From: a virus
IMG/VR virus record: IMGVR_UViG_3300028800_000048
Coordinates: 1-37,695 of that record
Direction: 5' to 3' (one strand)
DNA: 37,695 bases
Shown in pieces: positions 8,972 to 37,695 of the stretch; the first letter of the stretch is position 1, and each line of letters opens with the position of its first letter. Made by a program: the position numbers and the translations under genes. A model generated the notes under the pieces. The model did no database searches. It was not told the DNA's origin and worked only from the letters and a program-made list of their open reading frames with translations.

Positions 8972-9000
8972 ATTAAGGAGGGGTATTACCCCTCCTTAAT
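8972..9000. terminator. Bidirectional terminator between converging operons
   Basis: A perfect 12-bp stem ATTAAGGAGGGG/CCCCTCCTTAAT (8972-8983 with 8989-9000) closes a 5-nt loop. It sits where the plus-strand fibre operon meets the minus-strand recombination operon, and A/T bases at the stem feet give partial U tracts in both directions. The stop codon of the minus-strand gene at 8996 lies within the stem. Confidence 0.75.
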
Positions 9001-9166
9001 TATAGTACATAACGGTGTGTAGAATTCTCAGGAGTAGTAGTACCACTACTGAGTTCAATTTAATGATGTGGTAGCCCATCAAGTCGAGCGTTAAATAAAG
9101 CACGGCATAGAGAACGGCAAACCAGTTAAATCCTGCTTCAATCTTTGGTATTATAGGGGTCATCAT
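8996..9166 (-). CDS. Two-span small membrane protein, 56 aa
   Basis: The minus-strand frame starts at tandem ATGs (9166 or 9163) and runs to a TAA at 8998-8996. Two hydrophobic stretches (NWFAVLYAVLYLTLDLMGY and LNSVVVLLLLRILHTVMYY) are separated by a short IIK linker. It overlaps the end of the upstream gene by 29 bp. Its stop is within the bidirectional terminator, as expected for the last gene of an operon. Two-span proteins of this size include many holins, so this is a lysis candidate, but an early-type operon is an unusual place for one. Confidence 0.55.
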   Translation of the reverse strand: MMTPIIPKIEAGFNWFAVLYAVLYLTLDLMGYHIIKLNSVVVLLLLRILHTVMYYN

Positions 9167-9338
9167 TTTTGTATCTCAAGCTTATTGAATAATTGGTTTT
9201 TGGGTAGTGAGGATCATGGAGCATGAAAGCAATATAGCTTAAAAAAAGAACCACATAGAGCTCAAAAACATTAATGCCTCCAAATTTGCAACCTATATAT
9301 ATTAATGCGGTAAGAAAAGCGCAGCCAAGAGCGGTCAT
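9138..9338 (-). CDS. Two-span small membrane protein, 66 aa
   Basis: I chose ATG 9338 because it overlaps (ATGA) the stop of a 26-codon frame that has the ribosome site. A TTG at 9359 would add seven residues. Residues 1-15 (TALGCAFLTALIYIG) and 22-40 (FELYVVLFLSYIAFMLH) are hydrophobic; the C-terminal half is polar and charged. Together with the gene at 8996 it forms a pair of small membrane proteins at the end of the recombination operon. A holin/antiholin role is possible but unsupported by any specific motif. Confidence 0.55.
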   Translation of the reverse strand: MTALGCAFLTALIYIGCKFGGINVFELYVVLFLSYIAFMLHDPHYPKTNYSISLRYKNDDPYNTKD

Positions 9339-9415
9339 AATAGATTCTTTCTGTAACAAGTATTGCTCAAAACCCTGTAGTAAATTAACATCGATAGTAG
9401 TAAATGCTGCTTCAT
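9335..9415 (-). CDS. Possible 26-aa leader peptide
   Basis: ATG 9415 has a strong AAAGGAG upstream (14 bp spacing, somewhat long). The frame encodes a hydrophobic/basic 26-mer beginning MKQHLLLSMLIYYRVL and ends in TGA overlapping the ATG of the next gene. It may couple translation of the membrane protein at 9338, which has no good site of its own. Confidence 0.3.
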   Translation of the reverse strand: MKQHLLLSMLIYYRVLSNTCYRKNLL

Positions 9416-9438
9416 TTATTTATTACTCTCCTTTCCCT

Positions 9439-9462
9439 CGTCAGTGTTTCCACCACTGGCGG
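9439..9462 (-). other. Hairpin after the Bet gene
   Basis: CAGTG/CACTG (9442-9446 with 9453-9457), with partial pairing beyond it, lies between the Bet stop and the small membrane genes. No U tract follows on the minus strand, so it is more likely a processing or attenuation element than a strong terminator. Confidence 0.3.
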
Positions 9463-9479
9463 GGTTATAAGACACAAAT

Positions 9480-10268
9480 TTATAATTCAGGTGGTTTCAC
9501 CTTACTCTCTGCGGCTACAATTGCCCTAATTCTATCCTTAGCCGCCCGGTAATCATTCCTCTTAATTGCGGCAAATGTTTTAGCTGGGAGCTTGTTCAAG
9601 ATGCTTTCAGCTATCTTGGGAAACCCAACCAATTCAGCTTCAATCTCAGCAATCTCATGGGGCAACAAATATTCAGTTGTTTCAGGCTCACTCAATATAG
9701 GTTCTTTAAGCAATTCCTTGCTCAAGTTCACTTCCTCTTCTTCATGACCCAGTTCTTCAGAGGTACCAATACCACTGATCGCAAATGCGCGCTTCAATGC
9801 CATTGACTCTGCTACTTTAAGTATCATGGCGTTCGGGTAAGAAAGCCAAATATCTCTGCCTTTATTGTAATCCTTAAAGCTGACAAAGATTGAGACTGAT
9901 TTGGAGATATCTTTTCTGAAAACGTTACAATAAGCGCCTCTAAGCTGCGTTTTATCGAATTCCATATGAGCATCCCCATACTCAAGTAAAAAGCTGCCAT
10001 CGTTGCGTTTTGTAAGCTTATCGCCTACATATACCGCGTCCCCTTCCATGCCATCAAAGTTAGGATGAGACTGAGCTATTTTAAGATAGCCATCACGAGA
10101 AGTAAAGATTGAGGGTTTCTTGCCGGTAGCATATTTAATGAAATAAATTTCTTTTTTCAGCGGGTCTAAATTATATTGATTTGCAAGATATATGAATTCT
10201 TGAAATTCTTCATTGGTAGAATTTGGTGCACAAATTTTGCGAATCATATCTAAATTTTTATCAACCAT
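9480..10268 (-). CDS. bet: Phage Bet/RecT-family single-strand annealing protein, 262 aa
   Basis: The N-terminal 190 residues fit the Bet (lambda beta, RecT superfamily) pattern: KICAPNSTNEEFQEFIYLAN, then NLDPLKKEIYFIKY, then SIFTSRDGYLKIAQ, later KDYNKGRDIWLSYPNAMILKVAE and ALKRAFAISG. These proteins form rings or filaments on single-stranded DNA and anneal complementary strands during phage recombination and replication. The C-terminal 70 residues are acidic and then helical and basic, and are variable in the family. The start overlaps the upstream gene by 8 bp. No partner exonuclease (lambda exo type) was seen nearby. Instead, the operon contains a ComM-like ATPase. Confidence 0.9.
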   Translation of the reverse strand: MVDKNLDMIRKICAPNSTNEEFQEFIYLANQYNLDPLKKEIYFIKYATGKKPSIFTSRDGYLKIAQSHPNFDGMEGDAVYVGDKLTKRNDGSFLLEYGDAHMEFDKTQLRGAYCNVFRKDISKSVSIFVSFKDYNKGRDIWLSYPNAMILKVAESMALKRAFAISGIGTSEELGHEEEEVNLSKELLKEPILSEPETTEYLLPHEIAEIEAELVGFPKIAESILNKLPAKTFAAIKRNDYRAAKDRIRAIVAAESKVKPPEL

Positions 10269-10542
10269 TTTTGTTCTCTTTCTTAGGAATTTCTAAAGGA
10301 ATTTTGGAGAAATTAAAGATTTCGCAGTAGGCATCAAATGTTGGTTTATATTTTACCGCTAATTCTATAATGTTCCCGAGAAGTTGAATAACCTCTTCTA
10401 TATTGTGTTTATGCTCATCGGTTAAATTACCATCAGGTGACATTTGTGCTTTAAATTGTGTTTCATTTTCACCTAATTCTTTTGCATATTCATGAATTTG
10501 AATAATTAATTCCATTGATTTTGAATCTTTAATTTCCTTCAA
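10261..10542 (-). CDS. Hypothetical acidic helical protein, 93 aa
   Basis: It overlaps the gene before it by 14 bp and Bet by 8 bp, so it belongs to the same transcript. It is mostly helical (KSMELIIQIHEYAKELGENE and EEVIQLLGNIIELAVKY) with a Lys-rich tail. No family recognised. Placement directly before Bet suggests a recombination or single-strand DNA accessory role, but this is inference. Confidence 0.65.
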   Translation of the reverse strand: MKEIKDSKSMELIIQIHEYAKELGENETQFKAQMSPDGNLTDEHKHNIEEVIQLLGNIIELAVKYKPTFDAYCEIFNFSKIPLEIPKKENKNG

Positions 10543-10744
10543 TTTCTGCTCCTTCAGTAAAATATTCTTGTAAAAATCTTTCTCTCATTTCATCGGCTAC
10601 TTTGAATGTTAAAGAATCTGGATGATTTCCTAATTCAATCCATTGTTTAACAAACCCGGATGCAAATTGCGTATAACATTTCAGAAAAAGTAACAAACTA
10701 TCGCGATCAAAATTATATGAATCTGTTTTCATTTGAGGCTCCAT
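10529..10744 (-). CDS. Hypothetical small protein, 71 aa
   Basis: This frame overlaps both neighbours (16 bp upstream, 14 bp downstream), typical of compact phage operons. It has a helix-rich composition with FLKCYTQFASGFVKQWIELG in the middle and an acidic C-terminus. No family recognised. Confidence 0.6.
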   Translation of the reverse strand: MEPQMKTDSYNFDRDSLLLFLKCYTQFASGFVKQWIELGNHPDSLTFKVADEMRERFLQEYFTEGAEIEGN

Positions 10745-11334
10745 TCTCCAAATTCATTCTCTTCTATTTTATTTTCTAAAGCAAGACCAGCGACAATCTC
10801 GAGGAGCTCTTTTGGATTCATTTTGACGTGAGCCATAAGATCTTCAATAGTTATGCCATTTTTGCAAAGGTCCATTATTTGATTTTGATAATCCGCAAAT
10901 TCAACATCAGTTTTATCAATTTCCTTTGGCGCTAATCTATATTTGTTATTGAGTTGCTTAATAAACTGACAACGATCGAATACTTTCTTGGTGATGATAG
11001 GCGGATATATGTGGGGATATTCTTTTCCTTCCCATACAATGATTCCCATGTAGAATTTATTAGCAATAATGCGCGCCACTAAACTTCTATGCATTGTAAT
11101 AGCATATTTATTATTAATATATGCCGTTAAGGTAGTAAGACTGTGGCCACCAAGACTAAAAGTATTAAAGATGTCTTGCACAATGGCTGCTTGATCATGA
11201 TTGATACTTACGGCACCTTTTTTGTGATATTTAGTTCTTTGAACAACCTTTTCGACTTTATAACCAAAGGGATATGTAGTTAACCATTGCCCGCGCTCAA
11301 GTTTCAGTTGTTTCCAATAATTAGATTTTGACAT
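10729..11334 (-). CDS. Stand-alone 'Recombinase' domain of large serine recombinases, 201 aa, catalytic domain absent
   Basis: Residues about 20-130 match the Recombinase domain (Pfam PF07508) that follows the catalytic domain in large serine recombinases: PFGYKVEK, DQAAIVQDIFNTFSLGGHSL, then RSLVARIIANKFYMGIIVWEGK and the PPIITKKVFDRCQFI segment. The N-terminal resolvase domain with the active serine is missing, and the upstream sequence is the ComM gene, so this is not a simple frame break. Residues about 150-201 resemble a small winged-helix (GITIEDLMAHVKMNPKELLE). It may bind DNA and regulate or target other recombination proteins. It overlaps ComM by 14 bp and is co-transcribed with Bet. 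Confidence 0.78.
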   Translation of the reverse strand: MSKSNYWKQLKLERGQWLTTYPFGYKVEKVVQRTKYHKKGAVSINHDQAAIVQDIFNTFSLGGHSLTTLTAYINNKYAITMHRSLVARIIANKFYMGIIVWEGKEYPHIYPPIITKKVFDRCQFIKQLNNKYRLAPKEIDKTDVEFADYQNQIMDLCKNGITIEDLMAHVKMNPKELLEIVAGLALENKIEENEFGEWSLK

Positions 11335-12847
11335 CGAATCTCCTTACAAATTTATCAAATGAACGATAAGACAACGCTTCTTGAATATGGGGTATTTCTA
11401 TGTAGTCATAATGATCTATGTCTGCAATGGTACGAGCCACCTTTACAATCTTATGGTAAGAGCGCATAGAAAGATCAAGAGCTTCAAACGACTCACGTAT
11501 GTAATCTTTGGCATCGCTTTTCATGGCGCAGTATTTCTCAACATTACTTCCCTGGAGCTTGCCATTGTAATTACCTTTCGTGTTGCGGGTGTTTTGTCGC
11601 GTTATTGCTTCGTTTACCCGGATAGCAATATCAGCTGAAGATTCCCGTTTTTCAGTATCAATGACCTCAGAATTGGTAGATTTAACATGAAACTGAAGAT
11701 CTATGCGATCCAGGATAGGACCAGATATTCTCGATAGATATGATTTAATTTGGAAAGCGGCACAGCTGCATTTATTTTTATCTCCCAAATAACCACAAGG
11801 ACACGGATTAAGCGAAGCAATAAGAATAAACGATGCTGGATAAGTCACCGAGTAATTAGAGCGCTTAATATGTACTTTCTGCTCTTCTAGTATCTCACGC
11901 AGGCCTTCGATGCAGTTCGCTTTAAACTGCGGAAACTCATCAAGAAACAGAACTCCATGGTGAGCTAAGCTTACTTCGCCTACGCTGGGAGTAATTCCGC
12001 CACCAAGTAAACCGACCGGGCTCACCGTGTGGTGAGGGCGCCTGAGGGGCGATTTGGTCATGGGTAGATTATGCTTGAGCATGCCGGCAGCTGAATAGAT
12101 ACGAGTGGCTTCAATGATTTCTTCTTTATTGAGTGGTGGCAAGATGGAGGTAATACGCTGGCTGAGCATGGTTTTACCTGATCCTGGTGCTCCATAAAAG
12201 AGAATATTATGTTTACCAGCAGCAGCAATCTCGAGAACCCGTTTGGCCTGTACTTGGCCATAGATTTCATTGAGGTCGCCTGTCTCTAATTCTTGAGATT
12301 TAATGAGCGTTATTGGCTTCAATTTCTCAATATGATCAACGTTTAATAGTTGGTTGATGTGAGATATGGTATAGATGTTTTCTTGATTCAACAGCGAGCA
12401 TTCGTTGCCATTGGCGGTGGGTATAATGAGTTTCTTGCCCTTAAGCTTATTGAGAGACAAGGCAAGCGAGATACTATTTTTTATGGGATGCACTTCGCCT
12501 GAAAGGGAAAGTTCTCCAACAAGAATGGCATCTTGCAGAAATGCTTTGGTCTTATCATTGAGAATGTTGTTTTCCTGCAGGATGGCAACAGCCAAGGGCA
12601 GATCATAAAGCGCCCCATCCTTAAGGGTGTCAATGGGAAGCAAATTAATAATATAATGGCCTTCGTTAAGATCAAAATTATTATTGAGGGCGATGCTGAT
12701 CATCTTGTTTTTGAAATCAGCTTTATACTTGGGAGAGATGCCCATGATTGAGAATCGAGTGGTATATTCGCGGATGAAACTTATCTCGCACTCGATGCGC
12801 TTGGGATCTAACCCAAGCAACGAGGCGGTGATGATTTTTATGTTCAT
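11321..12847 (-). CDS. comM: ComM/YifB-family Mg-chelatase-like AAA+ ATPase, 508 aa
   Basis: Full length for the family (about 500 aa). Residues 1-165 form the Lon-protease-like N-terminal domain (DLPLAVAIL, GELSLSGEVHPI). The AAA+ core has Walker A GAPGSGKT (219-226), Walker B VLFLDE (299-304) and RRPHHTVSPVGLLGGG (269-284). The family Cys cluster is NPCPCGY..KCSC (C349, C351, C360, C362) and an arginine-finger region is ILDRIDLQ. The C-terminal Mg_chelatase_C helices follow, with SMRSYHKIVKVARTIAD. In bacteria ComM is a hexameric helicase that promotes branch migration during integration of transforming DNA. In this phage it shares an operon with Bet and a recombinase domain, so a strand-exchange or branch-migration role in phage recombination is likely. 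All motifs look intact. Confidence 0.92.
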   Translation of the reverse strand: MNIKIITASLLGLDPKRIECEISFIREYTTRFSIMGISPKYKADFKNKMISIALNNNFDLNEGHYIINLLPIDTLKDGALYDLPLAVAILQENNILNDKTKAFLQDAILVGELSLSGEVHPIKNSISLALSLNKLKGKKLIIPTANGNECSLLNQENIYTISHINQLLNVDHIEKLKPITLIKSQELETGDLNEIYGQVQAKRVLEIAAAGKHNILFYGAPGSGKTMLSQRITSILPPLNKEEIIEATRIYSAAGMLKHNLPMTKSPLRRPHHTVSPVGLLGGGITPSVGEVSLAHHGVLFLDEFPQFKANCIEGLREILEEQKVHIKRSNYSVTYPASFILIASLNPCPCGYLGDKNKCSCAAFQIKSYLSRISGPILDRIDLQFHVKSTNSEVIDTEKRESSADIAIRVNEAITRQNTRNTKGNYNGKLQGSNVEKYCAMKSDAKDYIRESFEALDLSMRSYHKIVKVARTIADIDHYDYIEIPHIQEALSYRSFDKFVRRFDVKI

Positions 12848-12848
12848 G

Positions 12849-13007
12849 TTAGTACATCCATTTCAGGGCATAAAGCTCTTGCAGTTCCCTGATAGCGTAT
12901 TCTGCTAAGTGCTTATCGCTGGTCAATACTGCTTTGGTATGAAGCTTTTCCAAGGTTTCAATTTGCATGTCTAACTTGGTTGGGATTTTATTGGGATTAT
13001 TGTTCAT
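12849..13007 (-). CDS. Hypothetical small helical protein, 52 aa
   Basis: ATG 13007 overlaps the upstream stop (ATGA), and its stop at 12849 is 1 bp before the ComM start. It reads MNNNPNKIPTKLDMQIETLE... with helical, Leu-rich content throughout. Tight coupling on both sides supports it as real. No family recognised. Confidence 0.6.
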   Translation of the reverse strand: MNNNPNKIPTKLDMQIETLEKLHTKAVLTSDKHLAEYAIRELQELYALKWMY

Positions 13008-13336
13008 GCTTGTATGCTTTTTGATAGATAGTTGAAGATTCTTAATTTTTCGGACAGATATTGCTGTGGCGGACGATTGCTTAGGTAATGGTTAAGCGCT
13101 ATCGTATCGCCAAAAGGAACTTTAGCCCACCATTGTAATGGTTTGAATCCATTGCAGAAATTTTTTATAGCTTTAGAGTCTGCCATGATAGCAGCGACAT
13201 GCGTAGGCTCCATGGCATCTAAGATGACTAAGATCTCAGTCATGGCATCTTCAGTATTGCCATCATTATCTACTGTTTGAATCAGTGCTCTGCAAGCATT
13301 GTACAGTTTTTGGTAATCTTCAATAATTGAATTCAT
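13004..13336 (-). CDS. Hypothetical protein, first gene of the recombination operon, 110 aa
   Basis: The start at 13336 is chosen for its AAGGAAAACC site and because the minus-strand promoter (-10 at 13372-13377) would start transcription inside a longer frame beginning at 13420. The protein (MNSIIEDYQKLYNACRALIQ...) is helical, with a Trp-rich middle (KPLQWWAKVPFGDTIALNHY). It is the first gene of the nine-gene minus-strand operon. No family recognised. Confidence 0.65.
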   Translation of the reverse strand: MNSIIEDYQKLYNACRALIQTVDNDGNTEDAMTEILVILDAMEPTHVAAIMADSKAIKNFCNGFKPLQWWAKVPFGDTIALNHYLSNRPPQQYLSEKLRIFNYLSKSIQA

Positions 13337-13371: not shown

Positions 13372-13399
13372 AGAATAACATAATCCTATGCATTGTCAA
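13372..13399 (-). promoter_or_regulatory. Promoter of the minus-strand recombination operon
   Basis: On the minus strand a perfect TTGACA (13394-13399) is 16 bp from TATTCT (13372-13377). It faces away from the plus-strand promoter at 13414. The two -35 boxes are an inverted repeat (TTGTCAA ... TTGACAA), so a shared regulator could bind both. Confidence 0.6.
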
Positions 13400-13413: not shown

Positions 13414-13441
13414 TTGACAACGTGATAATGTGCTATATACT
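13414..13441 (+). promoter_or_regulatory. Promoter of the plus-strand Cro-like gene
   Basis: A perfect TTGACA (13414-13419), 16-bp spacer and TATACT (13436-13441). Transcription would start near 13448, just before the 18-bp palindrome at 13456, and reach the gene at 13497. Confidence 0.7.
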
Positions 13442-13455
13442 ATAGATAAAAGTAA

Positions 13456-13473
13456 TAGGCCTAATTAGGCCTA
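13456..13473. promoter_or_regulatory. 18-bp palindromic operator
   Basis: TAGGCCTAATTAGGCCTA is a perfect inverted repeat immediately downstream of the plus promoter and upstream of the small HTH gene. Position and symmetry fit autoregulation by that HTH protein or control by another dimeric repressor. Confidence 0.65.
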
Positions 13474-13496: not shown

Positions 13497-13694
13497 ATGA
13501 TATACGTAAACGTGGATAAGCTTAAAGAAAGATTGATGAAGTACCTGGAGGTAACCATTATCTCATACAATGCGTTGGCGGAGCTGTGCAATTTAAGGCA
13601 CCAAACGCTTTCAAGATGGGCTAAGGGCGAAAAAGGATTGGCTGCGGTATCAGCGCGCAAGATAGATGCATATCTTAGCAGTAAGGGGTTCTAA
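13497..13694 (+). CDS. Cro-like helix-turn-helix regulator, 65 aa
   Basis: ATG 13497 follows GGGAGAAAAA. Residues about 22-50 form a helix-turn-helix (SYNALAELCNLRHQTLSRWA), with the recognition helix around RHQTLSRWAKGEKGL. The size and compact helical fold fit a Cro/Xre-type DNA-binding protein. It sits downstream of a strong promoter and an 18-bp palindrome, and faces the recombination operon, so it probably controls the divergent promoter pair. Its stop overlaps the next gene's start by one base. No CI-like repressor partner is evident. Confidence 0.75.
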   Translation: MIYVNVDKLKERLMKYLEVTIISYNALAELCNLRHQTLSRWAKGEKGLAAVSARKIDAYLSSKGF

Positions 13695-15568: not shown

Positions 15569-16024
15569 ATGAGCTTACGAAAATCTGCCACGTTTACCAT
15601 TATAGGGTCACCTATCCCCCTCTTTAGAGCAAGACCCAATTACCACCAGCGTCGCATGTGGGACTCTCAATCTGAACTGAAAACCTACTGGAAGTTACTT
15701 CTTGAAAAAATGCACAAGAATAGACCACCCTTTGCTGGGCCTCTTTCTCTTCGCGTATTTGCTTTTATAGAACTTCCCGTCTGTCGCCGCAAGAAGTGGA
15801 GCTCTCTCACCAACACCTATCATGGATCTCCACCTGATGCTTCAAATATCGTTAAATGGGTAGAAGATTGTTGCCAACTTGCCAACCTATTTAAAAATGA
15901 TTGTCTTATTGCCGATACCCAGTGCATTAAGATATGGACCACTGAACCTAAGACCGTCTTTACTATTACTGAACTAGATCCCCTCTATCAAATCAACCTT
16001 CAAGATTATGGACTAAACTTATGA
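15569..16024 (+). CDS. RusA-like Holliday-junction endonuclease with altered acidic site, 151 aa
   Basis: The N-terminus (FTIIGSPIPLFRARPNYHQR) and the central block (SPPDASNIVKWVEDCCQLAN) follow the RusA pattern: a beta strand with basic residues, then PDxDN..K...D. RusA resolves Holliday junctions using acidic residues that hold Mg2+. Here the second Asp of the usual PDxDN is Ser (PDASN), and the usual D-D pair downstream is reduced to LIADTQ. The enzyme may be weakened, use other residues or only bind junctions. It lies before the probable small terminase, a common position for phage RusA genes. ATG 15569 follows a weak GAGGTG site. Confidence 0.6.
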   Translation: MSLRKSATFTIIGSPIPLFRARPNYHQRRMWDSQSELKTYWKLLLEKMHKNRPPFAGPLSLRVFAFIELPVCRRKKWSSLTNTYHGSPPDASNIVKWVEDCCQLANLFKNDCLIADTQCIKIWTTEPKTVFTITELDPLYQINLQDYGLNL

Positions 16025-19359: not shown

Positions 19360-19521
19360 ATGGCTAAAGTAATAATATTTAAACAGAGCAGTTGCGTAAA
19401 ATTAGAAGATGCCATCAATTCATTTCTTAAAGAATCGCAACCTCAAATTCAATCAATCTCTTTTAGCACGAAAACTGATGATCTAGGGCCTTGGTATATT
19501 GCCCTGCTGTTATATAACTGA
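19360..19521 (+). CDS. Cse60-like small protein, 53 aa
   Basis: ATG 19360 overlaps the upstream stop region and follows AAGGATTAAC. MAKVIIFKQSSCVKLEDAIN begins a pattern (strand, helix with ED..INSFL, strand QIQSISF, strand ending ALLLYN) similar to small Cse60/DUF2758-type proteins, which are common in phages and have no clear role. It directly precedes fic, and its 3' half is duplicated, with 95% identity, after fic. Confidence 0.55.
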   Translation: MAKVIIFKQSSCVKLEDAINSFLKESQPQIQSISFSTKTDDLGPWYIALLLYN

Positions 19522-19543
19522 GTAGCTTATGTTTTATACTAAT
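19425..19543 (+). repeat. Direct repeat A, copy 1 (small gene 3' end plus fic start)
   Basis: 119 bp matching 20018-20136 without gaps, with about 6 mismatches (about 95%). It covers the 3' half of the 53-aa gene, the gap and the first five codons of fic. Confidence 0.9.
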
Positions 19544-20023
19544 AAAGAACTCTATGAATTTGTGCGTGAAAGTAACGCCATTGAAAATATAACACGTGAA
19601 CCATCTCAAGCAGAACTTGATGAACTTGAGAGGTTTATTCACTTGAAATATATGACTGTTGAAGAACTTGAGAAGTTTGTTTCGGTATACGAACCCAAAG
19701 CTGAACTAAGAACCAAATATGGGCAAGATGTAAAAGTTGGATCTTATTATCCGCCCTTTGGAGGCCCGGAGATTAGAGAAAAGCTTGCGCGCATATTGAT
19801 ACCTGACGATAAGCTTGCTGCAGACATATTGCATAATAGATACGAAGCACTGCATCCATTCACCGATTGTAATGGAAGAAGTGGCCGAGCTCTTTGGGCT
19901 TGGAAAAATAAATCTGTTTTAGGCAAAAGTCTCTTAAAATATGGCTTTTTAAAGCGCTATTATTACGAAACGCTGGGGCACTATAGCACCGATTACCAAT
20001 ATTACGAAAGAAGCCTATCTTAA
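19529..20023 (+). CDS. fic: Fic-domain protein with N-terminal inhibitory motif, 164 aa
   Basis: Residues 109-120 are HPFTDCNGRSGR, the Fic core HPFx(D/E)GNGRxxR with Cys114 in place of the first Gly; His109 and Arg117 are kept. Residues 15-20 (SNAIEN) match the (S/T)xxxE(G/N) inhibitory motif, so this is probably a self-inhibited, class II-like Fic enzyme that transfers AMP or another nucleotide part to a hydroxyl side chain. Target unknown. The protein is short (most have a longer C-terminal helical part), and its last residues (RSLS) come from a junction with repeat A, while a diverged copy of its C-terminal segment lies at 20481-20562. Flanked by duplicated sequence. Phage Fic/Doc proteins act as toxins or host-modifying enzymes. 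Confidence 0.85.
   Translation: MFYTNKELYEFVRESNAIENITREPSQAELDELERFIHLKYMTVEELEKFVSVYEPKAELRTKYGQDVKVGSYYPPFGGPEIREKLARILIPDDKLAADILHNRYEALHPFTDCNGRSGRALWAWKNKSVLGKSLLKYGFLKRYYYETLGHYSTDYQYYERSLS
19931..20012 (+). repeat. Repeat B, copy 1 (fic C-terminal coding segment)
   Basis: 82 bp in the 3' end of fic that matches 20481-20562 with roughly 85% identity. It encodes LLKYGFLKRYYYETLGHYST and a few more residues in both places. Confidence 0.85.
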
Positions 20024-20136
20024 AAAATCTCAACCTCAAATTCAATCAATCTCTTTTAGCACGAAAACTGATGCTCTAGGACCTTGGTATATTGCCCTAC
20101 TGCTATATAACTGAGTAGCTTATGTTTTATACTAAT
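20018..20136 (+). repeat. Direct repeat A, copy 2
   Basis: Second copy of 19425-19543. It overlaps the stop of fic, so the present fic ends inside repeat A. This suggests a past tandem duplication of about 593 bp (19425 to 20017). Confidence 0.9.
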
Positions 20137-20160
20137 CAGGATTGGATTAAGCCACTATAG
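20024..20160 (+). pseudogene. Remnant of the duplicated small gene and fic start
   Basis: After the fic stop the sequence repeats the last 34 or so codons of the 53-aa gene without a start. It then gives MFYTNQDWIKPL and a TAG (20122-20160), the first five codons of fic followed by unrelated sequence. Remains of a second gene pair whose core was replaced. Confidence 0.75.
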
Positions 20161-20171
20161 GAAATAAAATT

Positions 20172-20447
20172 ATGAAAATCAATAAGAAGAAAGATATAAC
20201 CAAATTTGAAAATATTAAGGATAGAATTATTGACCATCTTGATAATATAATTGATAAAACTGAAATGGGTATATATGAAGAAGTTGATCTTATTGATGGT
20301 TTTGTAAATCTCCCCTTTACTTTGGAATTATCATCAAATCTAATAATTGGTGGTTCTACTATACCGATGATAATGCTCTGCGGCAGAGATAGCGGAAGAA
20401 TTTATTTTTTTGCTTTGAAAGCGATAATAGAAGAAATGCAAGACTAA
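20172..20447 (+). CDS. Hypothetical acidic protein, 91 aa, in the replaced fic copy
   Basis: ATG 20172 follows GGAAATAAAATT. It begins MKINKKKDITKFENIKDRII, has an acidic middle and ends FFALKAIIEEMQD. It lies where the centre of the duplicated fic would have been (20137-20480). Whether it counteracts Fic or simply replaced the copy is unknown. No family recognised. Confidence 0.6.
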   Translation: MKINKKKDITKFENIKDRIIDHLDNIIDKTEMGIYEEVDLIDGFVNLPFTLELSSNLIIGGSTIPMIMLCGRDSGRIYFFALKAIIEEMQD

Positions 20448-20456
20448 AGGAAAAAT

Positions 20457-20567
20457 ATGAAATGGATTAGCGTTAAAGATCTGCTGAAATATGGTTTTTT
20501 GAAGCGCTATTATTACGAAACATTGGGTCACTATAGTACCGATTATCAATATTACGAAAGAATGTGA
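20457..20567 (+). pseudogene. Fic C-terminal fragment with a new 5' end, 36 codons
   Basis: An open frame MKWISVKDLLKYGF... ending YYERM. The first eight residues (MKWISVKD) look like the start of DUF551-type phage proteins, and the remainder is repeat B copy 2. Its ATGTGATG end overlaps the next start. ERM is probably the original end of fic. It has AAAGGAAAAAT upstream and could still be translated. Confidence 0.6.
20481..20562 (+). repeat. Repeat B, copy 2
   Basis: Second copy of 19931-20012, with mostly third-position differences, which implies the older copy was under coding selection. Confidence 0.85.
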
Positions 20568-37153: not shown

Positions 37154-37695
37154 TGGCAACTATATTACCAGGTGCTGGAACGTATGGCGGTGCTTTGGCA
37201 ACCGGCCTTTCACAAGGTCTTAATAATCTGTTGGATTCAAAACTTCGTCAAGTTAATGAACGTAATAAAATCAATAAGACAGCCACAGCGCTTCAAGCGT
37301 TAGATCCTAATTTAAGTCCGGAACAATCCCAACAAATAGCCCAAGCTCCCGAATCATTGATCAATCAATATTTCAAGAACGCCCAACAACAACGTTTGGG
37401 TGAACTAGAATATCAATCTCTTCAAGGATTGCGTGGTAATTTACAACCACAACCAAGCCAAGAAAATCTTTCGCAGTTTGGCCAACAAGCTCAGCAACCT
37501 GTATCTCCCGCAACGCCGGGCGGCCAAACACCTACACGAGGAGTTTCGCAAACTGGCTATATTAGACCTGGTTCAGCAGTTCAACAAGCTACCTATTTGC
37601 AGAAAGAAGAGCAAAATCTTTACAAGCGCGAACAGGATAGATTGAATCGCTTGCAGCAAGAACAAGCCTTTAATTTAAAGAGATTTAAAAATGAA
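37153..37695 (+). CDS. Internal/ejection-like virion protein, N-terminal part (continues at 1)
   Basis: ATG 37153 overlaps the previous stop. It begins MATILPGAGTYGGALATGLS and has a Gln-rich helical body (DPNLSPEQSQQIAQAPESLI). The frame is open to the window end, and the last 127 bases duplicate 1-127. The full gene is 37153-37568 joined to 1-682, 365 aa. See the entry at 1. Confidence 0.8.
   Translation, partial: MATILPGAGTYGGALATGLSQGLNNLLDSKLRQVNERNKINKTATALQALDPNLSPEQSQQIAQAPESLINQYFKNAQQQRLGELEYQSLQGLRGNLQPQPSQENLSQFGQQAQQPVSPATPGGQTPTRGVSQTGYIRPGSAVQQATYLQKEEQNLYKREQDRLNRLQQEQAFNLKRFKNE
37569..37695. repeat. Terminal direct repeat, right copy
   Basis: Identical to bases 1-127. See the left copy. 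Confidence 0.93.

Follow-up and report, generated by a model that had tools for sequence, protein, structure and literature searches.

Why would a phage carry an intact gene for ComM, the bacterial helicase for splicing in DNA taken up by the cell? The question is raised by the virus record IMGVR_UViG_3300028800_000048, analysed over its entire 37,695 bases (the window), in which the gene for this hexameric AAA+ ring motor, which moves DNA branches, lies in a leftward operon with genes for a RecT/Bet single-strand annealing protein and for a protein uniting the recombinase domain (RD) of large serine integrases with a predicted winged helix (WH). A first-pass annotation of this DNA had suggested that Bet, ComM and the RD protein might form an unusual phage recombination machine. 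An unusual recombination unit is indeed well supported, whereas a fixed trio is not, as most of the phages carrying comM use the annealase Erf and three use other candidate adaptors. We propose, with about even confidence, that an annealase, the ComM motor, an RD-WH adaptor and a RusA-type resolvase make up a branch-migration module owned by these phages.

A ComM family in phages

The window ComM matches TIGR00368 over its full length (447 bits, cut-off 362) and the Pfam families Mg_chelatase, Mg_chelatase_C and ChlI each above cut-off; against the narrower E. coli equivalog PRK09862 it reaches 345 bits, under the cut-off of 530 for that model. It has the Walker A (GAPGSGKT, residues 219-226) and Walker B (LFLDE, residues 300-304) motifs, a sensor asparagine (Asn347), four clustered cysteines (Cys349, Cys351, Cys360 and Cys362) and the arginines Arg317, Arg381 and Arg462; the Walker motifs, asparagine, cysteine cluster and arginines are invariant or nearly so across the phage ComMs. 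An AlphaFold2 (AF2) model, with a mean predicted local distance difference test score of 85, aligns along its whole length with Legionella ComM (8rxt; Z 35.2, 466 residues, root-mean-square deviation 3.4). The full-length ATPase with both Walker motifs, cysteine cluster and arginine finger that had been read from the sequence is thereby borne out. Among the DNA-contact residues named for the Legionella protein (PMC11612176), K46 is kept and the positions of R328 and K373 are occupied by arginine. With the transformation ComM (YifB) of Legionella pneumophila (8rxd/8rxt) and Vibrio cholerae the window protein shares the succession of Lon-like, AAA+ and Mg-chelatase-C domains, the catalytic residues and the cysteine cluster. 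Whereas that ComM is encoded on the chromosome and acts on DNA that the cell has taken up, the window ComM is encoded in a phage genome and belongs to a separate, phage-specific clade, has a putative DNA-binding adaptor encoded next to it, with an annealase in the same operon in several phages, and differs at some of the DNA-contact residues.

When viral contigs were scanned with ComM or RecT as single sequences, no relatives emerged, and alignment scans of IMG/VR were needed to recover them, carriers being judged by a window-type terminase, portal or neighbouring genes. There are 13 carrier records, several of them fragments: the window, L009, L010, L011, L012, L013, L015, L016/L035, L017, L020/L068 and L294, the last of which joined the set later through a scan with the RD protein. 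The phage ComMs (n=11), which are 36-50% identical to that of the window, fall together in a tree of 118 rows, as a single group on a long stem with support 100. Those of L009 and L011 are 48-50% identical to the window protein (E 2e-162 or better), and the best bacterial match in whole-genome searches, from a broad but non-exhaustive sample of about 260 bacterial ComMs with the Dependentiae outside it, reaches 42% and 374 bits. The best bacterial ComM among the matches listed in the contig scan has an E-value of 5e-121, and in Gammaproteobacteria, Chlamydiota and the other samples none exceeds 42% over most of the protein. In the phylogeny against host copies that had been suggested as a check, the phage ComMs thus stand apart from all bacterial ComMs tested. 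Both comM and the RD-WH gene are under purifying selection, the ratio of nonsynonymous to synonymous substitution rates between L020 and L068 being 0.08 for the former and 0.11 for the latter.

A chance acquisition had been envisaged should this ComM group with one host lineage, lack conservation in related phages and stand in a unique gene order; instead it falls in its own phage clade, related phages carry it and its adjacency to the RD gene recurs. It is very improbable that a recently captured host comM happens to adjoin phage recombination genes, given a separate, diverse and selected phage clade and a best bacterial identity of 42% against 48-50% for the L009 and L011 proteins. In favour of such a capture, PHROGs has no ComM family, so that comM is rare in described phages; a literature search found no paper on phage ComM. 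Judged from the tree and these comparisons, phage ComM is a family carried by phages and not a chance capture. Its carriers are scattered on the terminase tree, where at least five changes are forced, so that comM is either passed between these phages or frequently lost. One ComM-less relative, record G026 (L288, position 16787, minus strand), has an open reading frame (ORF) of about 80 residues corresponding to the first 73 residues of phage ComM; it lies two genes from an Erf gene and is probably a remnant.

The clade as defined here leaves out the comMs of L014, L021-L034, L036-L067, L069-L088 and L169-L185. Their contigs have no homologue of the terminase or portal of this phage group; many resemble host flanks or attachment-site fragments, and some form distant groups. 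Six of them (L041, L047, L048, L049, L051 and L054) carry a second, very divergent ComM-like group with support 100 and a stem length of 2.07. ComM matches in the phage record collection were not counted, being mostly on unannotated gut, Salmonella or Acinetobacter contigs or in attachment-site fragments.

The RD-WH protein and its linkage to comM

The window RD protein matches PF07508 with 46.5 bits (cut-off 21.1). Its residues 2-133 form the RD domain of large serine integrases and residues 141-201 a predicted winged helix; in the AF2 model the RD part, which aligns with 6dnw at Z 14.9, is followed by this winged helix. The resolvase catalytic domain PF00239 occurs neither anywhere in the window genome nor in any carrier, in agreement with the description of this protein as a serine recombinase lacking its catalytic domain. 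It shares the RD fold with the large serine integrases of A118 (4kis, 6dnw), Bxb1 and phiC31, as well as, in several relatives, the integrase-type zinc ribbon. Unlike them, it lacks a catalytic resolvase domain, none being encoded elsewhere in the genome either, its RD domain is duplicated in L009, L011 and L294, and a DprA-like winged helix appears to have been added.

The best clue to how the unit might work is the C-terminus of this protein. In L010 the C-termini match DprA_WH (PF17782) with 33.5-37.4 bits (cut-off 22.9), and DprA_WH is the top but weak family in four other RD-protein C-termini; that of L020 has no Pfam match and that of L013 only weak unrelated ones. A profile comparison between the C-termini of the RD proteins and of DprAs from fetched loci gives a probability of 91%, in a run without another winged-helix family as control, winged helices being common. 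In a profile search of the PDB, the DprA structure 3maj comes up at E 0.19, amid other winged helices and designed helical proteins. The C-terminus appears to be a winged helix most like that of DprA. The likeness to DprA (e.g. Helicobacter pylori DprA, with its DML1 winged helix) would lie in a C-terminal winged helix, which is of this type by best Pfam family in five relatives, and in the position of the gene beside comM, where dprA is found in several bacterial or host-flank loci. The RD proteins differ from DprA in having no Rossmann-fold core for binding single-stranded DNA, which is replaced by the RD domain of serine integrases. Separately, in the virus contig L053 (9452-12441) a ComM-like gene overlaps a gene for a DprA with a winged-helix-like C-terminus.

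The linkage of comM to the RD gene is tight and repeated. A PF07508 gene lies directly beside comM in 9 of the 13 carrier records, co-directional and overlapping in the window, L009, L010 (with two RD genes in a row), L011 and L294, and as a divergent pair in L013, L017, L020 and L068, the last two having the pair between terminase and portal. None of 28 related phage records without full-length comM has PF07508, so that per distinct phage the partner is found in 8/11 carriers versus 0/28 non-carriers; with a marginally lower count (7/10 carriers), Fisher's test gives p ~1e-5, uncorrected for kinship. A scan with the RD protein alone likewise returned only comM-linked loci, the new L294 among them. 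In all ComMs with an RD-WH partner, 13 residues follow the final Tyr-Arg motif, versus 1-3 in the three without; as the latter form one clade, this correlation represents a single event and no more than hints at a docking element. Between L009 (4223-5308) and L011 (11517-12605) the RD-WH proteins are 37% identical and the ComMs 75%; the partner evolves much faster, as if its DNA specificity were changing.

A historical account of the pair is also conceivable, in which an ancestral phage integrated at comM as attB by means of a large serine integrase and picked the gene up, the RD protein now being a decayed integrase, or a repressor or att-site blocker, with which ComM has no dedicated role. 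As with sr1WO prophages, which use the magnesium chelatase gene as their attachment site (PMC9203015), a serine-recombinase sequence lies beside comM here; however, the sr1WO comM is the broken attachment site of the host and the integrase is complete, whereas in these phages comM is an intact phage gene. On many virus contigs a truncated comM does adjoin a full-length serine integrase (L029, L031, L046, L052, L059, L073, L078, L083, L084, L085, L174, L176 and L183, as well as PP197248, 15550-17710), the truncated matches often ending near residues 347-353, in a conserved NPCPCG stretch. Large serine integrases often use the gene as their attachment site, as already known for sr1WO prophages (PMC9203015), and integration into it may well explain how comM and the RD gene first met. 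As an account of the present pair, this history leaves selection and linkage unexplained and is decidedly unlikely: the full-length ComM is subject to purifying selection, the RD protein is itself under selection, duplicated in three phages and extended by a winged helix, and the pair has been kept together through changes of orientation and place.

Annealase genes and the layout of the genome

Perfect 127-bp direct terminal repeats (1-127 and 37569-37695) indicate that the window is very probably a complete phage genome, which makes the absence of a gene from it meaningful. It encodes a large terminase, a portal, a major head protein and three tRNAs; the terminase is at best 44% identical to those in named phage records and 58-66% to those in IMG/VR contigs.

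The RecT/Bet protein of the operon matches PF03837 (102 bits) and the RecT/Bet family of PHROGs, and stands barely above the cut-off of TIGR01913 bet_lambda (77.5 versus 76.95 bits). All carriers with some 20 kb or more of sequence have an annealase, RecT/Bet in the window and Erf elsewhere, so that Bet is a local substitution and not a defining part of the unit. A search of viral genomes for ComM next to RecT/Bet had been suggested; in several carriers comM shares an operon with the annealase, which is mostly Erf. That Bet lacks the exonuclease with which it usually pairs was read correctly: the YqaJ exonuclease (PF09588) is absent from all 13 carrier records, no exonuclease PHROG was found among the genes scanned, and in lacking one the window is like the other carriers. 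RusA-like genes occur widely in this phage group, with or without ComM. These genomes resemble the lambda Red, P22 Erf and Rac RecT modules in having a RecT/Bet or Erf annealase and RusA in the same genome, and differ from them in having no YqaJ-type exonuclease and in the addition of the ComM motor with its putative adaptor.

The operon comprises nine minus-strand ORFs running from 13336 to 8996 (Table 1). Six of its eight junctions overlap by 4-29 bp, that between comM and the RD gene by 14 bp and that between the RD gene and the next by 16 bp; one junction has a single-base gap and a gap of 120 bp follows recT. Of the nine overlapping genes under one promoter described at first, the genes stand, with overlaps at most junctions; the promoter call is supported by position only, as such sites are no more frequent in the operon region than in shuffled sequence (19 observed, 18.9 in shuffles). 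A perfect 18-bp palindrome, TAGGCCTAATTAGGCCTA (13456-13473), lies between the divergent operons, adjoining the gene for a helix-turn-helix (HTH) regulator; it is likely an operator, and the regulator likely controls the divergent promoters. Elsewhere in the genome, imperfect direct repeats of 124 and 88 bp (19425-20562; 86-94% identical) precede the terminase gene and surround a gene with a weak Fic-like match, representing a local duplication.

Table 1. Features of the comM operon and of the neighbouring early region in the window
Feature	Position	Strand	Basis
Terminator-like hairpin, 13 pairs, operon end	8972..9000	-	sequence
Last small operon gene, 56 residues	8996..9166	-	ORF
Small operon gene, 73 residues	9138..9359	-	ORF; no family match
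RecT/Bet single-strand annealing protein, 262 residues	9480..10268	-	PF03837, PHROG RecT/Bet, TIGR01913
Operon gene, 84-93 residues, no family match	10261..10542	-	ORF, 8-bp overlap with recT
Operon gene, 71 residues, no family match	10529..10744	-	ORF, 14-16 bp overlaps on both sides
Putative RD-WH adaptor, 201 residues	10729..11334	-	PF07508, AF2 model and PDB comparison; C-termini of relatives match DprA_WH
ComM/YifB AAA+ ATPase, 508 residues, phage clade	11321..12847	-	TIGR00368, catalytic residues, model, tree
Gene upstream of comM, 52 residues	12849..13007	-	ORF; 1 base before comM, 4-bp overlap with its upstream gene
First operon gene, about 110 residues from ATG at 13336 (TTG start at 13420 possible)	13004..13336	-	no PHROG family, sub-threshold Pfam match only
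Promoter-like site TTGACA-16-TATTCT, TG before second box	13372..13399	-	upstream of leftward operon
Divergent Cro/CI-type HTH regulator	13497..13694	+	PHROG transcriptional repressor, 9.9e-6
RusA-type Holliday-junction resolvase	15569..16024	+	PF05866, 42.5 bits; rightward early genes

A possible role in phage recombination

The close structural relationship of the ComM ATPase domain to MCM, seen in structure comparison, raises the possibility of replication initiation, with the RD protein marking the phage origin and recruiting the MCM-like ring as replicative helicase or origin-melting factor. A site-specific DNA-binding partner beside a ring motor does resemble an initiator with its helicase, no carrier has a DnaB gene, and in L009 and L294 the comM-RD pair comes just before O-like and RusA genes. 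However, DnaB is also missing from five ComM-less relatives, so that ComM is not needed for the role of a replicative helicase in this group; O-like initiator genes occur in phages with and without ComM; the patchiness of comM on the terminase tree is unlike that of an essential replication helicase; and in several carriers comM shares its operon with the annealase. We consider this role unlikely.

That same patchiness of an accessory gene, as in many anti-defence genes, together with a partner whose DNA-binding part differs between phages, could alternatively point to counter-defence or host takeover, with phage ComM and its partner interfering with the ComM of the host, with transformation or with a defence system, or protecting the replicating phage DNA. 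Such a function seems hardly probable for a ComM that keeps every catalytic residue and the whole fold and, in several phages, is encoded together with an annealase; among the neighbouring genes none related to defence was noticed, a PADLOC search not having been made.

We therefore return to the branch-migration module. ComM promotes branch migration, and its recruitment, loading and direction are discussed as open (PMC11612176, PMC11784430). In these phages, the annealase (RecT here, Erf in the relatives) would make DNA joints, ComM would extend and move them, and RusA could cut the resulting junctions. We infer that the window ComM would be active as a helicase and would act on the annealase products. 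The RD protein, as part of the same evenly weighed proposal, would have changed from a recombinase into an adaptor, with the RD domain binding DNA and the DprA-type winged helix docking on ComM and loading it on DNA. A precedent would be DprA itself, whose winged helix is reported by Dalia, Radicella and colleagues to bind ComM and to recruit it in transformation. The combination of an RD domain in place of the DprA single-stranded-DNA-binding core with a DprA-like winged helix, encoded beside comM, fits an adaptor bringing ComM to DNA.

Several observations weigh against this proposal. The window ComM differs from Legionella ComM at the DNA-contact residues K43, K64, R366 and R369. Only one protein, that of L010, matches DprA_WH strongly, the C-terminus of the window RD protein has no Pfam match, and the profile of the adaptor C-termini is unspecific against the PDB. 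The annealase gene is far from comM in L010, L017, L020 and L068, and three distinct carriers (L012, L015 and L016/L035) have no RD-WH partner. In these three, comM is followed by other likely DNA-binding proteins, with weak PHROG matches to HNH-type families or with zinc-binding motifs and an HTH, and then directly by Erf.

More tentatively, and with the balance of probability somewhat against so specific a version, the fusion of RD to a DprA-type winged helix could represent sequence-addressed loading of ComM, with interchangeable DNA-binding adaptors in related phages, i.e. a domesticated transformation machine. The structural literature treats the loading of ComM on DNA as an open question (PMC11612176), for which these phages offer a compact, naturally evolved pair of ComM and putative adaptor genes outside competence, recurring in different arrangements. 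Such an adaptor, if confirmed, could give laboratory recombineering a natural means of directing where a recombination motor is loaded. Taken together, our findings suggest that phages have converted part of the machinery of bacterial transformation for use in their own recombination; if so, the branch-migration motor of transformation would be used by phages alongside annealase-type recombination, where it could shape phage mosaicism and DNA repair.

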